Source: Tenuifilum sp. 4138str (lineage in GTDB: Bacteria; Bacteroidota; Bacteroidia; Bacteroidales; Tenuifilaceae). From it: a DNA stretch of 64,000 bases. A program made the position numbers and the translations under genes. The notes below the pieces were generated by a model. It was not told the origin of the DNA and ran no database searches. It worked only from the letters and a program-made list of their open reading frames with translations. Positions 3,666 through 13,995 of the stretch are shown piece after piece (within the stretch, counting starts at the first letter, position 1; the number at the start of each line of letters is the position of its first letter). The DNA lies in the NCBI RefSeq assembly GCF_041102575.1, contig NZ_JBGCUE010000008.1, positions 62,001-126,000 of the forward strand, in the 5' to 3' direction.

Positions 3666-5033
3666 GTGGCTGATTTGGAATTCTACCATGCGTTAAAAAT
3701 TCTTCCCGATGTGTGCATCGGCTGCTCGCACTGTATGAGAGCCTGCCCAACCGAGGCCTTGAGGGTTGTAAACGGAAAAGCCAAGCTAATTAACAACCGC
3801 TGTATCGACTGCGGTGAGTGTTACAGGGTTTGCCCAACCCATGCCATTACGGTTCAACAGGACGATTTCAGTAAAATTTTTTCGTATAAACACCGCATTG
3901 CCCTTATTCCTTCCGTTCTACTAGGGCAGTTTTCAAAGGAGATATCACACGATGATGTTGCGCAAGCCTTACTGAGCCTTGGCTTTACATCCATTGTTGA
4001 GGTGGAGGATTCCGTGGAATATTTAATTGGCAAGCTGAACAGCTACATTGCTTCAACCGAGGTTAAACCGGTAATATCATCATTTTGCCCGGCAATAGTC
4101 CGGCTAATTCAGGTTAAGTTTCCCTCGCTTGTTGAGAATATCGCTCTGGTCAGACCACCATTGGACCTTACCGCAACATATATAAAGACAAGCCTTTTGG
4201 AGCAAGGTGTTCCTGAAAAAGAAATTGGAATATTCTACATTACCCCTTGTGCTGCCAAAATTGTTGCTGTACGACATCCCGAGGGAGAAGAAAAGTCGGA
4301 GATAGATGGGATTATCAACATGGATTTTATCTATAACCGAATTCTGCGTGAGATAAAAGGTAAATTACCTGCGGGAAATGAGCCAAAAATCATTTCGGAG
4401 CTTAGCCCCCGGAGTTACTCTTGGGCATTAACCAACGGCGAAGCATCGTGTATCGATGGCCGATGCCTGGCTATTGATGGAATATGGAATGTTATTGAGT
4501 TTCTGGAGAAGGTGGAGAACGATGAAATTCAAGATGTGGATTACCTTGAGCTCCGCGCATGCGATGAGAGCTGTGCGGGAGGTATCCTTGCGCCGGGGAA
4601 TCGGTTTTTAGCCGCCGAGCTAATTCGCCAAAACGCAAGTAAGGTATCGGTTTGGAGTATCAATAAAACCAACGATAAGATAGTAAAATACGATGCTAGC
4701 ATTAGCGGAAGAACTACGCTGAGCCCGCTTAGCCCAAGGTCGATGCTAAAGCTCGATGAGGATATGGCAAAGGCCATGCTTAAGATGCAGCGTGTTAACC
4801 AGCTGATGTGCTTCCTACCCGGTATCGACTGCGGGGTTTGCGGCGCCCCTTCGTGCGTTGCGCTTGCCGAGGATGTTGCGCAGGGTAGCGCATCGGTTTC
4901 GCAATGCGTTTTCCTCCAAAAAATCATGGAGCAAAACAAGCTCGACCCTGAACACTCGTTCCGGATCATGAAAAGAATTTGGGGTGAGAACCGGTTCCGC
5001 AAGGATTGCGACAAACCCATCAGGAACAAGTAA
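3666..5033 (+). CDS. Sensory-type [FeFe] hydrogenase-like protein (HydS-like)
   Basis: 455 residues, starting at GTG behind a GGAGG ribosome site. Domains: two 4Fe-4S motifs (Cys17/20/23/27 and Cys46/49/52/56), an H-cluster domain, and a C-terminal RnfB-type 4Fe-4S motif (Cys389/392/397/414). The four cysteines expected to hold the H-cluster are kept: Cys141, Cys195, Cys299, Cys303. Key surrounding residues differ from catalytic enzymes. The proton-shuttle Cys of TSCCP is Phe140, the Met of MPC is Thr193, the Glu of PCxxKxxE is Ala201, and the Met of ExMAC is Arg297. This pattern, plus neighbours of DRTGG, PHP and GHKL type, fits the putative sensory [FeFe] hydrogenases (groups C/D) rather than an H2-producing enzyme. 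No PAS domain is present. H2 or redox sensing is inferred. Confidence 0.85.
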   Translation: MADLEFYHALKILPDVCIGCSHCMRACPTEALRVVNGKAKLINNRCIDCGECYRVCPTHAITVQQDDFSKIFSYKHRIALIPSVLLGQFSKEISHDDVAQALLSLGFTSIVEVEDSVEYLIGKLNSYIASTEVKPVISSFCPAIVRLIQVKFPSLVENIALVRPPLDLTATYIKTSLLEQGVPEKEIGIFYITPCAAKIVAVRHPEGEEKSEIDGIINMDFIYNRILREIKGKLPAGNEPKIISELSPRSYSWALTNGEASCIDGRCLAIDGIWNVIEFLEKVENDEIQDVDYLELRACDESCAGGILAPGNRFLAAELIRQNASKVSVWSINKTNDKIVKYDASISGRTTLSPLSPRSMLKLDEDMAKAMLKMQRVNQLMCFLPGIDCGVCGAPSCVALAEDVAQGSASVSQCVFLQKIMEQNKLDPEHSFRIMKRIWGENRFRKDCDKPIRNK

Positions 5034-6827: not shown

Positions 6828-7226
6828 ATGACAAAAGTAAAGTCGCTTGCCGATCTGAAAAAGATGAAGGAGACCCTGCAAGCCAAAATCGACCTTAGGG
6901 AAAAGGGCGAAGCTGCAGAGAACCTTGTTCAGATTAAGGTTGCTATGGCTACCTGCGGTATTGCTTCGGGAGCAAAAAATGTAATGGATTTTCTGCTTGA
7001 GGAACTGGAAAAGCGTGGAATAAACGCTGTTGTAACACAAACCGGTTGCATGGGTTACTGCTATGCCGAACCTACCATTGAGGTAAAATTACCCAATGCC
7101 GACCCTGTTGTTTTCGGCTATGTTGACACCAAAAAAGCCGATGAGATTATTGAGAAATACATTAAGAACGGTGAACTGGTTGATGGTATTATTCCCGTTA
7201 ACTACGAGTCAATTGATAACAAATAA
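6828..7226 (+). CDS. Small thioredoxin-like 2Fe-2S ferredoxin of the hydrogenase operon
   Basis: 132 residues with the thioredoxin-like 2Fe-2S fold seen in NuoE tails. Cysteines that can bind the cluster are Cys43 and the pair Cys74/Cys78 (TGCMGYC). The usual fourth ligand, five residues after the first Cys, is Gly48 in the stretch TCGIASGA. Either the cluster has another ligand or the domain is structural. The N-terminal 35 residues are helical and charged. The start has a good AAGGAG site eight bases upstream. As first gene of the structural unit it likely forms a subunit or electron entry of the HydABC complex, as small ferredoxin-like proteins do in related clusters. Confidence 0.8.
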   Translation: MTKVKSLADLKKMKETLQAKIDLREKGEAAENLVQIKVAMATCGIASGAKNVMDFLLEELEKRGINAVVTQTGCMGYCYAEPTIEVKLPNADPVVFGYVDTKKADEIIEKYIKNGELVDGIIPVNYESIDNK

Positions 7227-7246: not shown

Positions 7247-9040
7247 ATGTCAAAGTATAAAATGCACCTGCTAATTTGTGGAGGCACAGGTTGTAAAGCT
7301 TCCTCAAGCGATGCAATAGCAGAGAAACTAAAACTAGAGCTGGCAGCCAATAACCTACAGGACGAAGTTCAGGTTATTATGACCGGTTGCTTTGGTTTTT
7401 GTGAGAAAGGTCCAATTGTAAAAGTATTGCCCGATAATACATTTTACACACAGGTTAACCCTGAAGATGCCACCGAAATTGTAAAGGAGCATGTAGTAAA
7501 GGGTCGTAAGGTGGAGCGTTTGCTCTATGTTGATCCCACCAAGAAGGCTACCATTGAGGATTCCAAGCATATGGGTTTTTACCGCAAGCAAATGCGTATT
7601 GCGCTTCGCAACTGCGGATTCATTAACCCTGAAAATATTGATGAATATATTGCTCGTGAGGGTTATCAAGCATTAGGTAAAGTGCTTACTGAATATACCC
7701 CACAGCAAACTATTGATATTATCAAAAAATCTGGCTTGCGTGGTCGTGGAGGCGGGGGATTCCCAACCGGTTTAAAGTGGGAAATTGCCAGCAAAAACCA
7801 TGCTGACCAAAAGTATGTAGTATGTAATGCCGACGAGGGCGACCCCGGTGCTTTCATGGACCGCTCAATTCTTGAAGGCGATCCACACTCAGTGCTGGAG
7901 GCCATGGCCATTTGCGGTTACTGTATTGGCGCCACAAAGGGTTTGATCTACATTCGTGCTGAATACCCACTTGCCATTAAACGCCTAAAGGTTGCCATCG
8001 ATCAGGCTCGTGAGTATGGGTTGCTGGGAAGCGAAATCTTTGGAACCAGTTTTAGCTTCGATATCGAATTACGCTACGGAGCCGGCGCTTTTGTTTGTGG
8101 CGAGGAAACTGCCCTTATCCACTCCATGGAGGGCTTACGTGGTGAACCAAGCAACAAACCCCCATTCCCTGCACAAAGTGGTTACATGGGCAAGCCAACC
8201 AACGTGAATAACGTTGAAACCTTTGCAAACGTACCACCCATTATTTTGAAGGGTGCCGACTGGTACTCATCAATTGGTACCGAAAAGAGCAAGGGTACTA
8301 AGGTATTTGCGCTTGCAGGTAAAATCAACAACGTAGGACTTATTGAGGTTCCAATGGGTATCACACTGCGCGAGGTAATTTTTGAGATTGGTGGTGGTAT
8401 CAAGAATGGAAAGAAGTTTAAGGCTGTTCAAACTGGTGGTCCTTCGGGCGGTTGCTTAACCGAGAAACACCTCGATACCCCAATTGATTTCGACAATCTG
8501 ATTGCTGCAGGCTCAATGATGGGTTCGGGCGGTATGATTGTTATGGACGAGGACGACTGTATGGTATCGGTTGCCAAGTTCTACCTCGATTTCACCGTTG
8601 AGGAAAGCTGCGGAAAATGTTCTCCCTGCCGTATTGGTAACAAGCGTCTGTACGAGCTACTGGAACGCATTACCAAGGGCGAGGGTACCATGGAGGACCT
8701 AGAGCGTTTACGCAACCTATCGCAAGTAATTAAGGATACCTCGCTTTGCGGTTTAGGACAAACTTCGCCAAACCCCGTTCTATCAACCCTGGATAACTTC
8801 TACGATGAGTATGTGGCTCACGTGGTTGATAAGAAATGTCCATCGGGTCAGTGCAAATCGCTCATGCAGTATGTTATTGATCCAGAAGCTTGCGTGGGAT
8901 GTACGGCTTGTGCCCGCAACTGCCCTGTAAATGCAATCAGTGGCGAACGCAAAAAACCACACGAGATTAACCAGTCAATCTGTATCAAGTGTGGTGCATG
9001 TATGGAGAAGTGTAAATTCGATGCTATCAGCATTAAATAA
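7247..9040 (+). CDS. hydB: HydB, NuoF-like NADH- and flavin-binding subunit of bifurcating hydrogenase
   Basis: 597 residues in the order typical of HydB of trimeric bifurcating hydrogenases. First comes a thioredoxin-like 2Fe-2S domain (Cys11, Cys16, Cys48, Cys52). The NuoF core follows with GLRGRGGGGFP for FMN/NADH and CNADEGDPGAF, then an SLBB segment and the 4Fe-4S motif ESCGKCSPC. The C-terminus carries two ferredoxin-type 4Fe-4S motifs (CVGCTACARNCP and CIKCGACMEKC). It should oxidise NADH and split electrons with ferredoxin, delivering them to HydA. The start follows GGGAGG at good spacing, and hydA begins 14 bases after its stop. Bifurcation itself is inferred from the family. Confidence 0.93.
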   Translation: MSKYKMHLLICGGTGCKASSSDAIAEKLKLELAANNLQDEVQVIMTGCFGFCEKGPIVKVLPDNTFYTQVNPEDATEIVKEHVVKGRKVERLLYVDPTKKATIEDSKHMGFYRKQMRIALRNCGFINPENIDEYIAREGYQALGKVLTEYTPQQTIDIIKKSGLRGRGGGGFPTGLKWEIASKNHADQKYVVCNADEGDPGAFMDRSILEGDPHSVLEAMAICGYCIGATKGLIYIRAEYPLAIKRLKVAIDQAREYGLLGSEIFGTSFSFDIELRYGAGAFVCGEETALIHSMEGLRGEPSNKPPFPAQSGYMGKPTNVNNVETFANVPPIILKGADWYSSIGTEKSKGTKVFALAGKINNVGLIEVPMGITLREVIFEIGGGIKNGKKFKAVQTGGPSGGCLTEKHLDTPIDFDNLIAAGSMMGSGGMIVMDEDDCMVSVAKFYLDFTVEESCGKCSPCRIGNKRLYELLERITKGEGTMEDLERLRNLSQVIKDTSLCGLGQTSPNPVLSTLDNFYDEYVAHVVDKKCPSGQCKSLMQYVIDPEACVGCTACARNCPVNAISGERKKPHEINQSICIKCGACMEKCKFDAISIK

Positions 9041-9054
9041 TTAGGGTGATAACA

Positions 9055-10830
9055 ATGGAAACAGTAAAACTTACAATAGATAACAAACAGGTTGAAGTAC
9101 CCAAGGGTACTACAATTTACAAGGCAGCCAGGAAGTTGGGTATTGATATTCCTGTTCTTTGCTACATGGAACTCCACGATTTGGGAGTTGAAAACAAGCC
9201 TGCCGGATGCCGTATTTGCGTGGTTGAGGTTGAAGGACGCAGAAACCTTGCTCCCAGCTGTGCAACTGAGTGCGCTGAGGGTATGGTTGTTAAAACCCAT
9301 ACCACCCGTGTTATTAACGCACGTCGCACTGTAATGGAGTTAATCCTTTCCGACCATCCAAAGGATTGTTTAACCTGTCCTAAGAGCGGTCGTTGCGACT
9401 TGCAGGATATGGCTATTAAACTAGGGATTCGCGAGATCCCCGGTCAGGAATACGCTGAGATGTCAACATACAAAAAGGACTTTTCTCCATCTATCATCCG
9501 TGATGTTGATAAGTGTATCATGTGCCGTCGCTGCGAGACCATGTGTAATGAGGTACAAACCGTTGGTGCGCTTAGCGCTGTAAACCGTGGTTTTATGGCT
9601 GTTGTTGCACCAGCTTTTGAGCAGGATTTGGAAAAATCGCCCTGTACCTACTGTGGTCAGTGCGTGGCGGTGTGCCCCACCGGCGCATTAACCGAGGTTG
9701 ACCATACCACAAAGGTTATTCGTGCTATTGCCGATCCTACAAAGACCGTACTTGTACAAACTGCACCTGCGGTTCGTGCGGCTCTAGGGGAGGAGTTTGG
9801 TATGAAGCCCGGAACCTTAGTTACTGGTAAGATGGTTGCCGCTTTACGCCAGATTGGTTTTGATTACGTTTTCGATACCGATTTTGCAGCCGACCTAACC
9901 ATTATGGAGGAAGGTACCGAACTACTCGACAGGCTAACCCGATTCCTGAACGGCGACAAGAATGTTAAGTTACCCATTCTAACCAGTTGCTGCCCGGGTT
10001 GGGTTAATTTCTTTGAACACAACTTTACCGATATGCTCGATGTACCATCGAGCGCTAAGTCACCACAGCAGATGTTTGGTGCAATTGCCAAATCATACTT
10101 TGCTGAGAAGTTGGGCAAAAAACGCGAAGAATTAGTTGTTGTATCGGTAATGCCCTGCTTGGCTAAGAAGTATGAGTGCCAACGCGATGAGTTTAAGGTT
10201 GATGGCAATCAGGATGTTGACTTCTCAATATCAACCCGTGAGTTAGCACACCTTATCAAGGAGTTTAACATCAACTTTGAGGAGTTGCCCGATGATGATT
10301 TTGACCGTCCGTTAGGAGAGTCAACTGGTGCTGCTGTAATATTTGGAGCAACAGGTGGTGTAATTGAAGCTGCTGTTCGTACAGCATATGAGGTTTATAC
10401 TGGCAAACCTCTGCCCAAGATCGATTTTACAGAACTCCGTGGTATGGAGGGGATCCGTTCAGCAACCATCGATTTCAATGGATTGCCAATAAACATTGGA
10501 ATTGCCCATGGATTGGGTAACGCCCGCAAGTTACTGGAGGATGTACGCTCGGGTAAGGCAAATTACCATGCCATTGAGGTAATGGCTTGCCCCGGTGGAT
10601 GTATTGGTGGAGGTGGTCAACCATTGCATCACGGTAACTCTGCCATTATCAAAGCTCGTATGGAGGCTATTTACCGTGAGGATGCTGGTAAACCAATTCG
10701 CAAATCGCATGAGAACCCCTACATAGTAAAACTTTATGAGGAGTTCCTGGGCAAGCCCATGAGCGAAAAGGCACACCACCTGCTACACACTCATTATTTC
10801 AGCAAGAAAAAGGATATCTACATTAAATAG
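9055..10830 (+). CDS. hydA: HydA, catalytic [FeFe] hydrogenase subunit
   Basis: 591 residues counted from the ATG at 9055; an in-frame GTG at 9046 is less likely because it lies in the ribosome-site region. The N-terminal 2Fe-2S domain has Cys36/52/55/69. Then come the His-Cys3 4Fe-4S site (His101, Cys105/108/114) and two 4Fe-4S sites (Cys154-164 and Cys197-207). The H-cluster motifs are complete: TSCCPGW (Cys312 shuttle, Cys313 ligand), MPCLAKKYE (Cys368) and EVMACPGGCIGGGGQP (Met510, Cys512, Cys516). It should make or oxidise H2 in the cytosol. It lacks the extra C-terminal 2Fe-2S domain of some bifurcating HydA proteins. Maturation genes hydE, hydF and hydG are not in the window. Confidence 0.96.
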   Translation: METVKLTIDNKQVEVPKGTTIYKAARKLGIDIPVLCYMELHDLGVENKPAGCRICVVEVEGRRNLAPSCATECAEGMVVKTHTTRVINARRTVMELILSDHPKDCLTCPKSGRCDLQDMAIKLGIREIPGQEYAEMSTYKKDFSPSIIRDVDKCIMCRRCETMCNEVQTVGALSAVNRGFMAVVAPAFEQDLEKSPCTYCGQCVAVCPTGALTEVDHTTKVIRAIADPTKTVLVQTAPAVRAALGEEFGMKPGTLVTGKMVAALRQIGFDYVFDTDFAADLTIMEEGTELLDRLTRFLNGDKNVKLPILTSCCPGWVNFFEHNFTDMLDVPSSAKSPQQMFGAIAKSYFAEKLGKKREELVVVSVMPCLAKKYECQRDEFKVDGNQDVDFSISTRELAHLIKEFNINFEELPDDDFDRPLGESTGAAVIFGATGGVIEAAVRTAYEVYTGKPLPKIDFTELRGMEGIRSATIDFNGLPINIGIAHGLGNARKLLEDVRSGKANYHAIEVMACPGGCIGGGGQPLHHGNSAIIKARMEAIYREDAGKPIRKSHENPYIVKLYEEFLGKPMSEKAHHLLHTHYFSKKKDIYIK

Positions 10831-10843
10831 GGAGGAAACACAA

Positions 10844-11332
10844 ATGTCACATATAAAGCTTGAGCTTAAACCCGAACAGGTAGCCAAGATTAAGGAAATA
10901 TGCAAGTCGTTTAACAACGACCCGGGCGAACTGATAAATGTATTACACAAGACCCAGGAAACCTTTGGTTACCTACCCGCTGAGGTTCAGGAAGTAGTTG
11001 CTGCCGAGTTAAACATTTCGGTTGCTAAGGTGTATGGTGTTGTAACGTTCTACTCGTTCTTCACCATGATACCTAAGGGTAAGCACCCGATTAGCATTTG
11101 TACAGGTACAGCATGCTACGTTCGTGGTGCCGAAAAGGTGCTCGATGAATTTAAACGGATACTTAACGTTAAGGTGGGTGAAACCACACCCGATGGCAAG
11201 TTTTCATTAAACTGCCTGCGCTGTGTTGGTGCTTGTGGACTTGCTCCAGTAGTGCTGATTGGTGAAAAGGTGTATGGCCGTGTTTCGCCCGATGGTGTAA
11301 AGGATATTATTAAGGAGTACGAAGAGCAATAA
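10844..11332 (+). CDS. hydC: HydC, NuoE-like 2Fe-2S subunit
   Basis: 162 residues, the normal NuoE/HydC length. A helical N-terminal domain (about 1-75) precedes the thioredoxin-like 2Fe-2S domain with Cys86, Cys91, Cys127 and Cys131 as ligands. An extra Cys124 lies nearby. It passes electrons between HydB flavin and HydA. The gene follows hydA by 13 bases with a GGGAGG ribosome site and is closed by a strong terminator, so it ends the operon. The gene order small ferredoxin, hydB, hydA, hydC differs from the ABC naming order but is common. Confidence 0.93.
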   Translation: MSHIKLELKPEQVAKIKEICKSFNNDPGELINVLHKTQETFGYLPAEVQEVVAAELNISVAKVYGVVTFYSFFTMIPKGKHPISICTGTACYVRGAEKVLDEFKRILNVKVGETTPDGKFSLNCLRCVGACGLAPVVLIGEKVYGRVSPDGVKDIIKEYEEQ

Positions 11333-11379
11333 ACAGCATAATGCCTGATTTCAGGTATTAGTTTAGGTTGGTTATGTTT

Positions 11380-11416
11380 AGGGGTTTACATTTTTTGTAA
11401 GCCCCTAACTTTTTTT
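11380..11416 (+). terminator. Terminator of the hydrogenase operon
   Basis: A ten-pair stem (AGGGGTTTAC with GTAAGCCCCT, one G-T pair) with a seven-base loop is followed by a run of seven T. Confidence 0.85.
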
Positions 11417-11493
11417 GTATTTCTTAACGCAAGTTTAATTAAACCTGTGTGTCATATCGGTGTTTAATTAATGTTGAATTTTAGGAATAAACT

Positions 11494-13995
11494 ATGATGA
11501 AAAAGATTTTACTGCTTTGGGTTATTGCAGCAGTTACAGTAACCTCCATGGCTCAGGATAGAATGCAGGGCCGTAGTGGACAGAGTTTTGACATGAGCAA
11601 CTTTAACGGGGTGATTACCGGAAAGGTTATCGACTCGCTAGATAGAAATGGTGTTGAGTTTGCAAACATTGCGCTCTATAAACAGAAGGATTCCTCACTT
11701 GTAACCGGAACCCTTACCGATGCATCAGGTAATTTTATGATGGAAAAGCTGATGCCCGGCCGGTACTATATTGACGTAAAATTTATAGGCTACCAGAGCA
11801 GAAGGATAAGCGGAATTATGGTTTCGCCACGTAGCCCAAAGGTCGATTTGGGAACTTTCTCAATACTGGCAGCCAGTGAGAATATCGAAGCGGTTGTTGT
11901 TACCGGCGAAAAGAAAATGCTGCTCCATAACCTTGATAAAAAGGTTTTCAATGTTGATAAGGATATTGCGGTTGAGGGAGGAACAGCGTCCGATGTACTA
12001 CAGAATATCCCATCGGTTGAGGTTGATACCGATGGTAATGTAAGTTTAAGGGGCAGCTCTAACGTCAATATTCTCATTGATGGCCGTCCATCCATGTTAA
12101 ACAGCATGGAAGAATTACCTGCTCAAATGATTGATAGGGTTGAGGTTATTACAAACCCATCGGCCAAGTACGATCCCGATGGAATAACCGGTATTATCAA
12201 CATAGTACTTAAAAAACGTAAGGAACCTGGTTATAATGGAATGGTAAGCTTAAATGCTGGAACCGGGAATAAGTATAACGCAACCGTAAACATGAATTGG
12301 CGTCAGGATAAGGTAAACGTGTTTGCCAATTATAGCTTTCGCAGGGGGCAAATGGATAGGTTTTCTATTGGCGATAGGGTAACCCTCTTTAACAGTGGTG
12401 CCGACTCCTCATTCCTTTCGCAAAACTCCGAGGGACAATCGAACATGTTTTTTCACAACATACGTGGCGGAGCCGATTATTTTATTGACTCCAGGACAAC
12501 CCTTTCGTTCACCGGAAACTTAAATTTCCGTACGTTCGACATGGATAATAATGTGTTATCGAATAGCTACTCTAACTTCAATAGTAACACCTTACAGAAT
12601 ACAAGAATTTCACTAAACTCCAACGATGGCCTTGGTCATGAGTACTCGCTCAACTTCAAGCGAACATACGATACTCCCGGTAAGGAGTGGACCGCCGATG
12701 CGTTCTTTTCGCGTAATGCTTATAACAACCTAAATAATATCAACCAGCAGGAGATTTTTAATACCGTACCCACTACTGCTCTTGAACGCGCCGAAACCGA
12801 CGGGTGGATGAACACCTTTACTTTTCAAACCGACTATGTTACACCATTTGGGAATGGAGGAAGGATAGAGACTGGAATAAAGGCGCAAATAAGACGAAGC
12901 GATGCCGACTACGTTTATAAAATCTTCAATTCATTAGGCAATACATGGGATTTTGACGCTAACCGCTCCAACCATTTTGTTTACAATGAGGAGATTTATT
13001 CCGCATATGGAATTTATTCAAACACCTTTGCTAACGGAAAGTTTAGCTACCAGTTAGGTTTGAGGGTTGAGGACCAACACTCAAAGTCAGACCAGAGAAC
13101 AACCAATGAGGTTGCTGATGTAAATAGGTTGAACCTGTTTCCCAGTGCGCATATCCGTTGGGAACCAAACTCCATTAACAGCCTTCAACTTTCATATAGC
13201 CGCAGGGTAAACAGACCAAACGCTAGGGTGTTAAACCCATTCCTAAATACTTCCGATAATTTTAACTGGTCGAAGGGAAACCCCTACCTTGAGCCTGAGT
13301 TTACCAGCTCAATTGATTTAAGCCACAACCTCAACTTCCCAAAGACAAAGATTACCACATCGGTTTACTACCGCGATACCCGAAATGGCTTCTCCAGACG
13401 AATGACTGTTATTGATACCGTGGCAACTCAACCAACACTCACTACCTTTATCAACCTATCGCACTATGAGAGCATAGGTGCCGAGGCTGTTGTAACACAG
13501 AATATTGCTAAATGGTGGAGAATTAACGCCAGCTATAGCTACTACTACTCTAAGCTGTTTGGCGATGTGGTTAGCGGAGCTAACGAGGGTAGTTCCTGGA
13601 ACGTTAAGTTGGCTTCGTTTTTTACCATTGGAAAGAATGTTGATATTCAGCTGACCGGAAACTACCGTGCACCATCAATTACTGTAGGCGGTTCAGGCCG
13701 AGGTTTCCATATGGTAGGTGGTGCGCAGGGTGAAACCAAGGAGATGTACTGGGTTGATTTAGGTGCACGCATCAATGTGCTAAATAAAAAGGGAACTATC
13801 ACAGTTAGGGTGAGCGATATTTTTAATACCCAAAAAATGAAGTATAGCTCATGGGATACAAACTTTTACTCGTATAACGAAAGCTGGCGCGAAAGCCGGG
13901 TAGTATTTGTTGGATTCTCTTACAGAATTAACAACTATAAGATGAGACCAGAGAGAAGGGTTGATTCCGATGATTCTTTTGATATGCTTGAATAG
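11494..13995 (+). CDS. TonB-receptor-like outer-membrane beta-barrel protein
   Basis: 833 residues. A signal peptide ends near MAQ at residue 20. A carboxypeptidase-regulatory-like beta-sandwich (about 38-125: GVITGKVIDSL through PGRYYIDVKFIGYQ) is followed by a plug-like domain with DVLQNIPSVEVD, SLRGSSNVNILIDGRP and VEVITNPSAKYDPDG. A long aromatic-rich barrel (about 250-833) follows. This is the Bacteroidota family of outer-membrane barrels related to TonB receptors (OMP_b-brl_3). No TonB box was identified, and no SusD partner lies next to it, so a polysaccharide-utilisation role is not indicated. The substrate is unknown. Two start Met codons are adjacent. Confidence 0.88.
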   Translation: MMKKILLLWVIAAVTVTSMAQDRMQGRSGQSFDMSNFNGVITGKVIDSLDRNGVEFANIALYKQKDSSLVTGTLTDASGNFMMEKLMPGRYYIDVKFIGYQSRRISGIMVSPRSPKVDLGTFSILAASENIEAVVVTGEKKMLLHNLDKKVFNVDKDIAVEGGTASDVLQNIPSVEVDTDGNVSLRGSSNVNILIDGRPSMLNSMEELPAQMIDRVEVITNPSAKYDPDGITGIINIVLKKRKEPGYNGMVSLNAGTGNKYNATVNMNWRQDKVNVFANYSFRRGQMDRFSIGDRVTLFNSGADSSFLSQNSEGQSNMFFHNIRGGADYFIDSRTTLSFTGNLNFRTFDMDNNVLSNSYSNFNSNTLQNTRISLNSNDGLGHEYSLNFKRTYDTPGKEWTADAFFSRNAYNNLNNINQQEIFNTVPTTALERAETDGWMNTFTFQTDYVTPFGNGGRIETGIKAQIRRSDADYVYKIFNSLGNTWDFDANRSNHFVYNEEIYSAYGIYSNTFANGKFSYQLGLRVEDQHSKSDQRTTNEVADVNRLNLFPSAHIRWEPNSINSLQLSYSRRVNRPNARVLNPFLNTSDNFNWSKGNPYLEPEFTSSIDLSHNLNFPKTKITTSVYYRDTRNGFSRRMTVIDTVATQPTLTTFINLSHYESIGAEAVVTQNIAKWWRINASYSYYYSKLFGDVVSGANEGSSWNVKLASFFTIGKNVDIQLTGNYRAPSITVGGSGRGFHMVGGAQGETKEMYWVDLGARINVLNKKGTITVRVSDIFNTQKMKYSSWDTNFYSYNESWRESRVVFVGFSYRINNYKMRPERRVDSDDSFDMLE

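Follow-up and report, generated by a model that had tools for sequence, protein, structure and literature searches.

Group D (M2e) comprises [FeFe]-hydrogenases that are putative sensors and lack a PAS domain. As reported by Land et al. (2020, PMC8163306), their typical traits comprise two N-terminal clusters, a C-terminal Cx2Cx4Cx16C motif, the absence of PAS, the loss of the shuttle cysteine and the replacement of Met353 by Ser or Thr; the Cx2Cx4Cx16C spacing is reported there for groups C and D. For TamHydS from Thermoanaerobacter mathranii a group D proton path, E252-E289-S249-D265, has been proposed by Cabotaje et al. (2023, PMC10407848), in which E252 is the relay adjoining the azadithiolate amine. 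According to the same paper, changes at E252 and E289 lower the activity, and the usual replacement of the shuttle cysteine in group D is Ala. Schumann et al. (PMC13104023) describe that H2 reduces one N-terminal cluster of TamHydS, alters its secondary structure and leaves the C-terminal cluster unreduced, and they regard a redox change of the C-terminal cluster as an unlikely signal route. How group D hydrogenases relay their signal is a question raised by Land et al. (PMC8163306). Further marks of the group, namely slow reversible H2 turnover, raised H2 affinity and CO tolerance, are properties of the matured protein. Among the group C sensors, HydS from Ruminococcus albus is described as PAS-bearing and is stated to be needed for growth at high H2 (PMC11837493).

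The window analysed here, a stretch of 64,000 nucleotides from Tenuifilum sp. 4138str, carries a gene, hydS (Table 1), whose predicted product fits this known class. HydS contains two N-terminal [4Fe-4S] motifs, an H-domain (Fe_hyd_lg_C in Pfam, 81 bits) and the C-terminal RnfB-type iron-sulphur motif announced in a preliminary description of the locus (PF04060, 46 bits, residues 384-416), the cysteines of which (C389, C392, C397 and C414) show the Cx2Cx4Cx16C spacing. A residue read-out finds the H-cluster ligands Cys141, Cys195, Cys299 and Cys303 at the numbers given in that description, together with Phe140, Thr193, Ala201 and Arg297 at the other signature places. The corresponding motifs are SSFCP (F140-C141), T193-P-C195, PCAAKIVA (A201) and R297-A-C299-DES-C303. 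Two of the typical group D exchanges are thereby present, with T193 at the Met353 place and F140 at the place of the shuttle Cys299. An AlphaFold model of HydS, built from an 18-row alignment and without cofactor, has a pLDDT of 80.6 and a pTM of 0.81, and its best fold matches in the PDB are [FeFe]-hydrogenases, with 17-20% identity among the 50 matches listed. No PAS domain is matched by Pfam in HydS. By itself this negative is weak, because Pfam likewise gives no PAS match in the R. albus HydS; a PAS domain has no room in the window protein, however, since only 41 residues follow the last cluster cysteine (Cys414). The earlier remark that the protein lacks PAS, unlike group C sensors, is therefore correct as to the domain, but the absence is a mark of group D, a class that the remark did not name.

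Table 1. Features of the hydS locus, with positions numbered from the first letter of the window
Feature	Position	Strand	Details
DRTGG-domain protein 1, 114 aa	2886..3230	+	PF07085 25.7 bits (cut-off 25.2); PF07905 31.4 bits, below cut-off
SpoIIAB/RsbW-like ATPase, 138 aa	3237..3653	+	PF13581, PF02518; TIGR01925 53.6 bits (cut-off 135)
hydS, group D (M2e) putative sensory [FeFe]-hydrogenase	3666..5033	+	GTG start, 455 aa
Phe140-Cys141 codons (group A shuttle-Cys place and H-cluster ligand)	4083..4088	+	computed from residue numbers
Glu259 codon, TamHydS E252 counterpart	4440..4442	+	alignment; mapping inferred without the TamHydS sequence
Glu295 (TamHydS E289 counterpart), Leu296 and Arg297 (loop-3 Met place) codons	4548..4556	+	alignment
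DRTGG-domain protein 2, 112 aa	5046..5384	+	PF07085 22.9 bits, just below cut-off; PF02603 25.1 bits (cut-off 24)
PHP-domain protein, likely phosphoesterase, 246 aa	5381..6121	+	PF02811
HATPase_c protein, 184 aa	6166..6720	+	PF02518 57.9 bits; no HisKA match
2Fe-2S ferredoxin-like protein	6828..7226	+	NF041612 35.6 bits, below cut-off
hydB, NADH/FMN subunit of bifurcating hydrogenase	7247..9040	+	PF01512, PF10589
hydA, group A6 catalytic [FeFe] subunit	9046..10830	+	NF040763 915 bits (cut-off 765); TSCCPGW intact
hydC, thioredoxin-like 2Fe-2S subunit	10844..11332	+	PF01257

A phylogenetic comparison with the hydrogenase groups, as proposed in the preliminary description, unites the window protein with every D-labelled row on a single branch (100/100), distinct from the group A rows (100/99), in an H-domain tree of 59 rows (58 different) with no characterised group D sequence among them. 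L124, from a Subdoligranulum record, is the only D-labelled row of this tree whose record is named as Firmicutes. The group C rows stand apart from the D branch, while the single group B row sits on a long branch and its place is unsure. Membership of catalytic group A is rejected by the position in the tree and by the score of 72 bits against the 406-bit cut-off of the group A model; in addition, the group A signature of Cys299, Met353, the loop-2 Glu and Met497, with its own proton path, is replaced by F140, T193, A201 and R297. Group B1 is likewise rejected, with 87 bits against a cut-off of 450 bits. Group C does not fit either, given the missing PAS match, the lack of room after Cys414 and signature residues that differ from those of 25 C-labelled rows. 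In these rows, which were labelled by length (L003 as a partial gene) and of which only some were domain-scanned, position 259 is Leu, Ile or Met in 25 of 25 and thus never Glu, position 201 is Glu or Asp in all, and Arg297 is found in none. Judged from its residues, HydS does not appear to be a fast catalytic enzyme, and the expected poor H2 turnover and the preference for an H2 or redox sensor agree with its fit to group D, a class of putative sensors.

The suggestion that the protein loses its proton path holds for the group A path, but not for that of group D. By motif and spacing, and without recourse to the TamHydS sequence, E252, E289, S249 and D265 of TamHydS correspond to Glu259, Glu295, Thr256 and Asp271 of the window protein, so that counterparts of the whole group D path are present by alignment and a complete loss is ruled out. 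The acidic pair E259/E295 is a further feature of HydS that had gone without mention. Conservation was assessed in a close set of 92 group D rows, including the window, which were picked by similarity to the window protein and show a median pairwise identity of 50%; L084 is in this set, and L003 (a partial group C row) and L006 (a second copy of the window gene) are left out. The four H-cluster cysteines are invariant in the close set. E259, D271 and E295 are found in all 92 rows. At position 256, 89 rows have Thr and 3 have Ser; at position 140, 86 have Phe and 6 have Tyr. Arg297, which from its motif position would lie near the cofactor, had been singled out as a notable change; the residue is real, but 92 of 92 rows carry it, and it is therefore a trait of the lineage rather than a one-off change of the window gene. 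Outside the close set lie four outlying D rows, L124 and the rows L009, L010 and L011 discussed below. L124 has Ala140 and Asp297, and its relays are kept.

What is new at this locus is its context, a regulatory gene set on which the preliminary description did not remark. Ten genes on the forward strand, with a longest gap of 107 bp, form a run in which HydS is part of a six-gene cassette (DRTGG, SpoIIAB/RsbW-like ATPase, HydS, DRTGG, PHP, HATPase) leading a bifurcating HydABC operon (2Fe-2S protein, HydB, HydA, HydC), in keeping with the linkage to a bifurcating group A hydrogenase that is reported as frequent for group D. Neighbours were counted in the best 80 of 168 relatives (named loci, the closest ones), the denominators being the loci in which the gene was found or had room. 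Upstream of hydS the first DRTGG gene is present in 75 of 76 loci and the SpoIIAB-like ATPase in 79 of 80. Downstream follow the second DRTGG gene (75/78), PHP (76/78), HATPase (66/72), the 2Fe-2S protein (62/70), HydB (62/69), HydA (58/65) and HydC (55/61). Residues E45, N49, D74, G103, G105 and G107 of the SpoIIAB-like ATPase are at least 90% conserved, and its ATP-binding motifs are presumably kept. The His/Asp/Glu pattern of the PHP protein is also conserved and presumably preserves the likely metal ligands. No description of the cassette, or of its [NiFe]-linked form presented below, was found in the open-access literature searched, which is not proof of absence.

The cassette also occurs in a cultured relative, Alkalitalea saponilacus (L030). 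Several variants of this arrangement were observed. In L080 the first DRTGG gene and the ATPase gene lie approximately 6 kb upstream of hydS, and in L082 approximately 1 kb upstream, with the second DRTGG gene well downstream. The cassette of L128 (Parabacteroides distasonis) has no adjoining HydABC, and in L017, L018, L037 and others HydC-HydB-HydA matches are found upstream of the cassette on the same strand. In the window itself, a 761-aa open reading frame on the opposite strand (92-2377, -) separates upstream hydB-like and hydA genes from the cassette. A hydA gene (L226:3993-5819) ends approximately 180 bases before window position 1; its product has TSCSPGW with the shuttle cysteine kept, and the second cysteine of TSCCPGW, here replaced by Ser, is what we take to be a ligand of the H-cluster cubane. 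TSCSPGW also occurs in L131, L132, L133, L141, L143, L184, L185, L190 and L191.

These observations are best accommodated by a reading in which HydS is a slow group D [FeFe]-hydrogenase homologue serving as a sensor, with the cassette tuning the HydABC hydrogenase encoded downstream, to which a probability of roughly 75% is assigned. The strong association of hydS with HydABC, and with a NiFe/HydBC operon in three genomes, would also suit a subunit that assembles the HydABC complex or is accessory to it. Such a role is very improbable, as hydS occurs with the whole or a partial cassette but without HydABC close downstream in L020, L055, L069, L080, L082, L088, L094 and L128. In addition, the NiFe-HydABCSL complex purified from Acetomicrobium mobile is said to consist of five subunits, with no such protein in the account given (PMC8880783).

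The host genome encodes six H-domain proteins. Three HydA-type proteins exceed the cut-off of the group A model, two of them also that of A6, while the third falls under the A6 cut-off. The others, two group C-like proteins and the HydS of the window, are of the sensor type. One group C-like sensor is fused to a histidine kinase (L225:8124-10151) and is followed by an open reading frame named by eye as response-regulator-like (stretch 8124-11713, +); the other (L225:1545-3431) lies beside a SpoIIE-like phosphatase (stretch L225:351-3431, -). Matches over the cut-off are also present for HydE, HydF and HydG, so that the host can presumably build an H-cluster. A hydrogenase that is slow but truly catalytic, serving H2 uptake or release instead of signalling, would agree with the H-cluster ligands and group D relays of HydS and with the description of TamHydS as a reversible catalyst (PMC8163306). 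This alternative is improbable in view of the low activity given for TamHydS, of the order of 0.1 umol H2 per mg per min (PMC10407848), and of the three other HydA-type subunits over the group A cut-off in the same genome. Moreover, the genes linked to hydS encode ATPase, PHP and DRTGG proteins rather than electron carriers dedicated to it.

By best match, group D proteins occur in 25 of the 27 genomes of the host family, one of the 25 being a fragment. No group D match was found in the remaining two, G417 and G407, the latter of which is 92% complete and is called the same species as the host, so that its lack of a match counts against the sensor reading. Among 395 genomes of the phylum, group D is found in five at E 1e-30, and three more were matched through group C-like proteins. 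Other sensor types were also encountered. In L220:1261-3612 an H-domain is fused to a methyl-accepting chemotaxis domain according to Pfam, and L221, L222 and L223, which group with it in the tree, are probably similar; chemotaxis-type group C hydrogenases are known. A 1349-aa hybrid sensor encoded by L219:5925-9971 (-) combines an H-domain with PAS, a histidine kinase, two receiver stretches and Hpt.

In three genomes of the same phylum (G172, G337 and G180, 98-99% complete) the cassette leads an Hdr/Mvh-like [NiFe] hydrogenase operon, whose [NiFe] large subunit (PF00374) is encoded on the strand of hydS, approximately 7.6-8.7 kb further downstream. The order is HdrC, HdrB, HdrA-like, DRTGG1, ATPase, HydS, DRTGG2, PHP and HATPase, continuing with HydC, 2Fe-2S, HydB, an FeS subunit without an H-domain, MvhD-like, NiFe small and NiFe large; the Hdr and Mvh names, and that of the NiFe small subunit, are provisional assignments from general features of these families. 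Three proteins of G172, namely HydS, the HdrA-like protein and the FeS subunit, were scanned with Pfam; for G337 and G180 the remaining proteins were assigned through BLAST matches to G172. The G172 operon has an additional malate-dehydrogenase-like gene. Identity to G172 is 63% (G337) and 40% (G180) for HydS, 80-81% for HydB and 71-83% for the [NiFe] large subunit. HydS is the sole H-domain protein of G172 and G337, and G180 has one more, which is HydA-like with TSCSPGW. No HydE, HydF or HydG over the cut-off was found in the three genomes, for HydG also by protein search.

The [NiFe]-linked HydS proteins keep all four H-cluster cysteines, and one N-terminal cluster cysteine is changed (Cys20 to H/R/D). 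Three of the four group D relays are lost, T256 being replaced by V/L/I, E259 by Q/Q/L and D271 by G/A/S. These losses are not explained by distance alone, because L124, with 35% identity to the window HydS, is nearly as distant as the [NiFe]-linked rows (28-33%) yet keeps all four relays. As the [NiFe]-linked rows (L009, L010 and L011) form one branch (98/94), the losses may represent a single event.

In the light of the [NiFe]-linked relatives, for which no maturases were detected, H2 itself need not be the essential input, and the cassette may work by redox sensing without H2 chemistry. In its full form this becomes a second account of the locus, according to which HydS is an H2-independent iron-sulphur redox sensor, its H-domain serving as a scaffold for [4Fe-4S] clusters only, and the cassette reports the ferredoxin/NADH redox state to the hydrogenase operon. 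The cassette before a [NiFe] operon, the altered relays beside conserved cysteines and the lack of HydEFG over the cut-off in G172, G337 and G180 all speak for it. We nevertheless consider it unlikely for the window protein, whose genome does contain HydEFG and whose E259, D271 and E295 are found in 92 of 92 close rows, a conservation that would hardly be expected unless H-cluster chemistry were under selection; moreover, the three supporting genomes belong to one branch and may reflect one event. A broader proposal is held tentatively and at somewhat less than even odds: the cassette may control bifurcating hydrogenases in general, whether [FeFe] or [NiFe], and its [NiFe] branch would have given up the diiron site so that HydS signals via its iron-sulphur clusters alone, while the window HydS represents the H2-competent form.

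Genome G347 (L217/L218/L224) argues against a simple link between the relays and maturation, and also against the H2-independent account. Its HydS relays are kept, but no HydE, HydF or HydG over the cut-off was found, which breaks the rule that relays are lost where HydEFG is lost; the genome encodes two other [FeFe] H-domain proteins (A-type and B1-type) and one [NiFe] hydrogenase protein. Absence of HydG alone is weak evidence, because it is common here and often occurs beside an intact TSCCPGW HydA. Of the 55 phylum genomes with an H-domain match, 24 gave no HydG over the cut-off, a count compared by eye with at most four candidates scored per genome. In 14 of these HydG-negative genomes, those whose HydA was read, the motif is intact TSCCPGW in 9 and TSCSPGW in 5. 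L227 of G124 and L229 of G224 show a similar gene order, with HydG beside a HydE-like gene in G224 only, and the absence of HydG looks real in G124, a single-contig genome with an intact TSCCPGW HydA. A search of the DNA with a degenerate pattern of the radical-SAM motif of HydG missed the HMM-found HydG of G224 and G432, and was left out as evidence.

For the preferred reading of HydS as a sensor, the following course of events is proposed. The host HydEFG would load the H-cluster of HydS, and either H2 or a low cellular redox potential would then reduce the H-cluster and one N-terminal [4Fe-4S] cluster, provided that the matured protein behaves like TamHydS. The resulting shape change might be passed to the co-encoded SpoIIAB-like ATPase and the HATPase protein, which gene order points to as partners, while the PHP protein and the two DRTGG proteins could serve as counter-enzyme and adaptors. 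The output of the ATPases, acting on targets of their own, would finally adjust the bifurcating HydABC just downstream, whose role as target is likewise suggested by gene order. No STAS, sigma-factor or transcription-factor partner for the SpoIIAB-like ATPase was noticed. As F140 and R297 differ from the residues of TamHydS, the kinetics of the latter may not carry over to the window protein. The conserved six-gene cassette names candidate signalling partners, above all the SpoIIAB-like ATPase directly upstream, and its naturally occurring [NiFe]-linked variants could serve to tell the sensing of H2 apart from that of redox state.

The locus shares features with several known systems. The NiFe-HydABCSL operon of A. 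mobile, compared by its description rather than by operon sequence, resembles the [NiFe]-linked loci in that HydBC-type subunits are joined to a [NiFe] module and a HisK gene is reported; its "HydS", however, is the NiFe small subunit (PMC8880783). The group C sensors, including TmHydS, the R. albus HydS and the two host proteins of L225, have in common with the window HydS two N-terminal cluster motifs, an altered H-domain and a C-terminal FeS motif, but they are separate in the tree, and the C-labelled rows lack Arg297 and have Leu, Ile or Met at position 259 and Glu or Asp at position 201. TamHydS, as described in PMC8163306, PMC10407848 and PMC13104023, resembles the window protein in domain plan, absence of PAS, Cx2Cx4Cx16C motif, a hydroxyl residue at the Met353 place and the acidic relay pair. 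Its gene is also located upstream of a bifurcating group A hydrogenase and beside a histidine-kinase-like ATPase (Land et al., PMC8163306). The differences concern the residue before the last C-terminal cysteine, which is Gln in the window protein and Asp403 in TamHydS, and the H-cluster pocket, where Phe140 and Arg297 replace Ala137 and the Leu at the Met497 place of TamHydS. With the invariant Arg297 and Phe/Tyr140 of the close set, this pocket would add another group D type to the one known from TamHydS, with its Ala and Leu.
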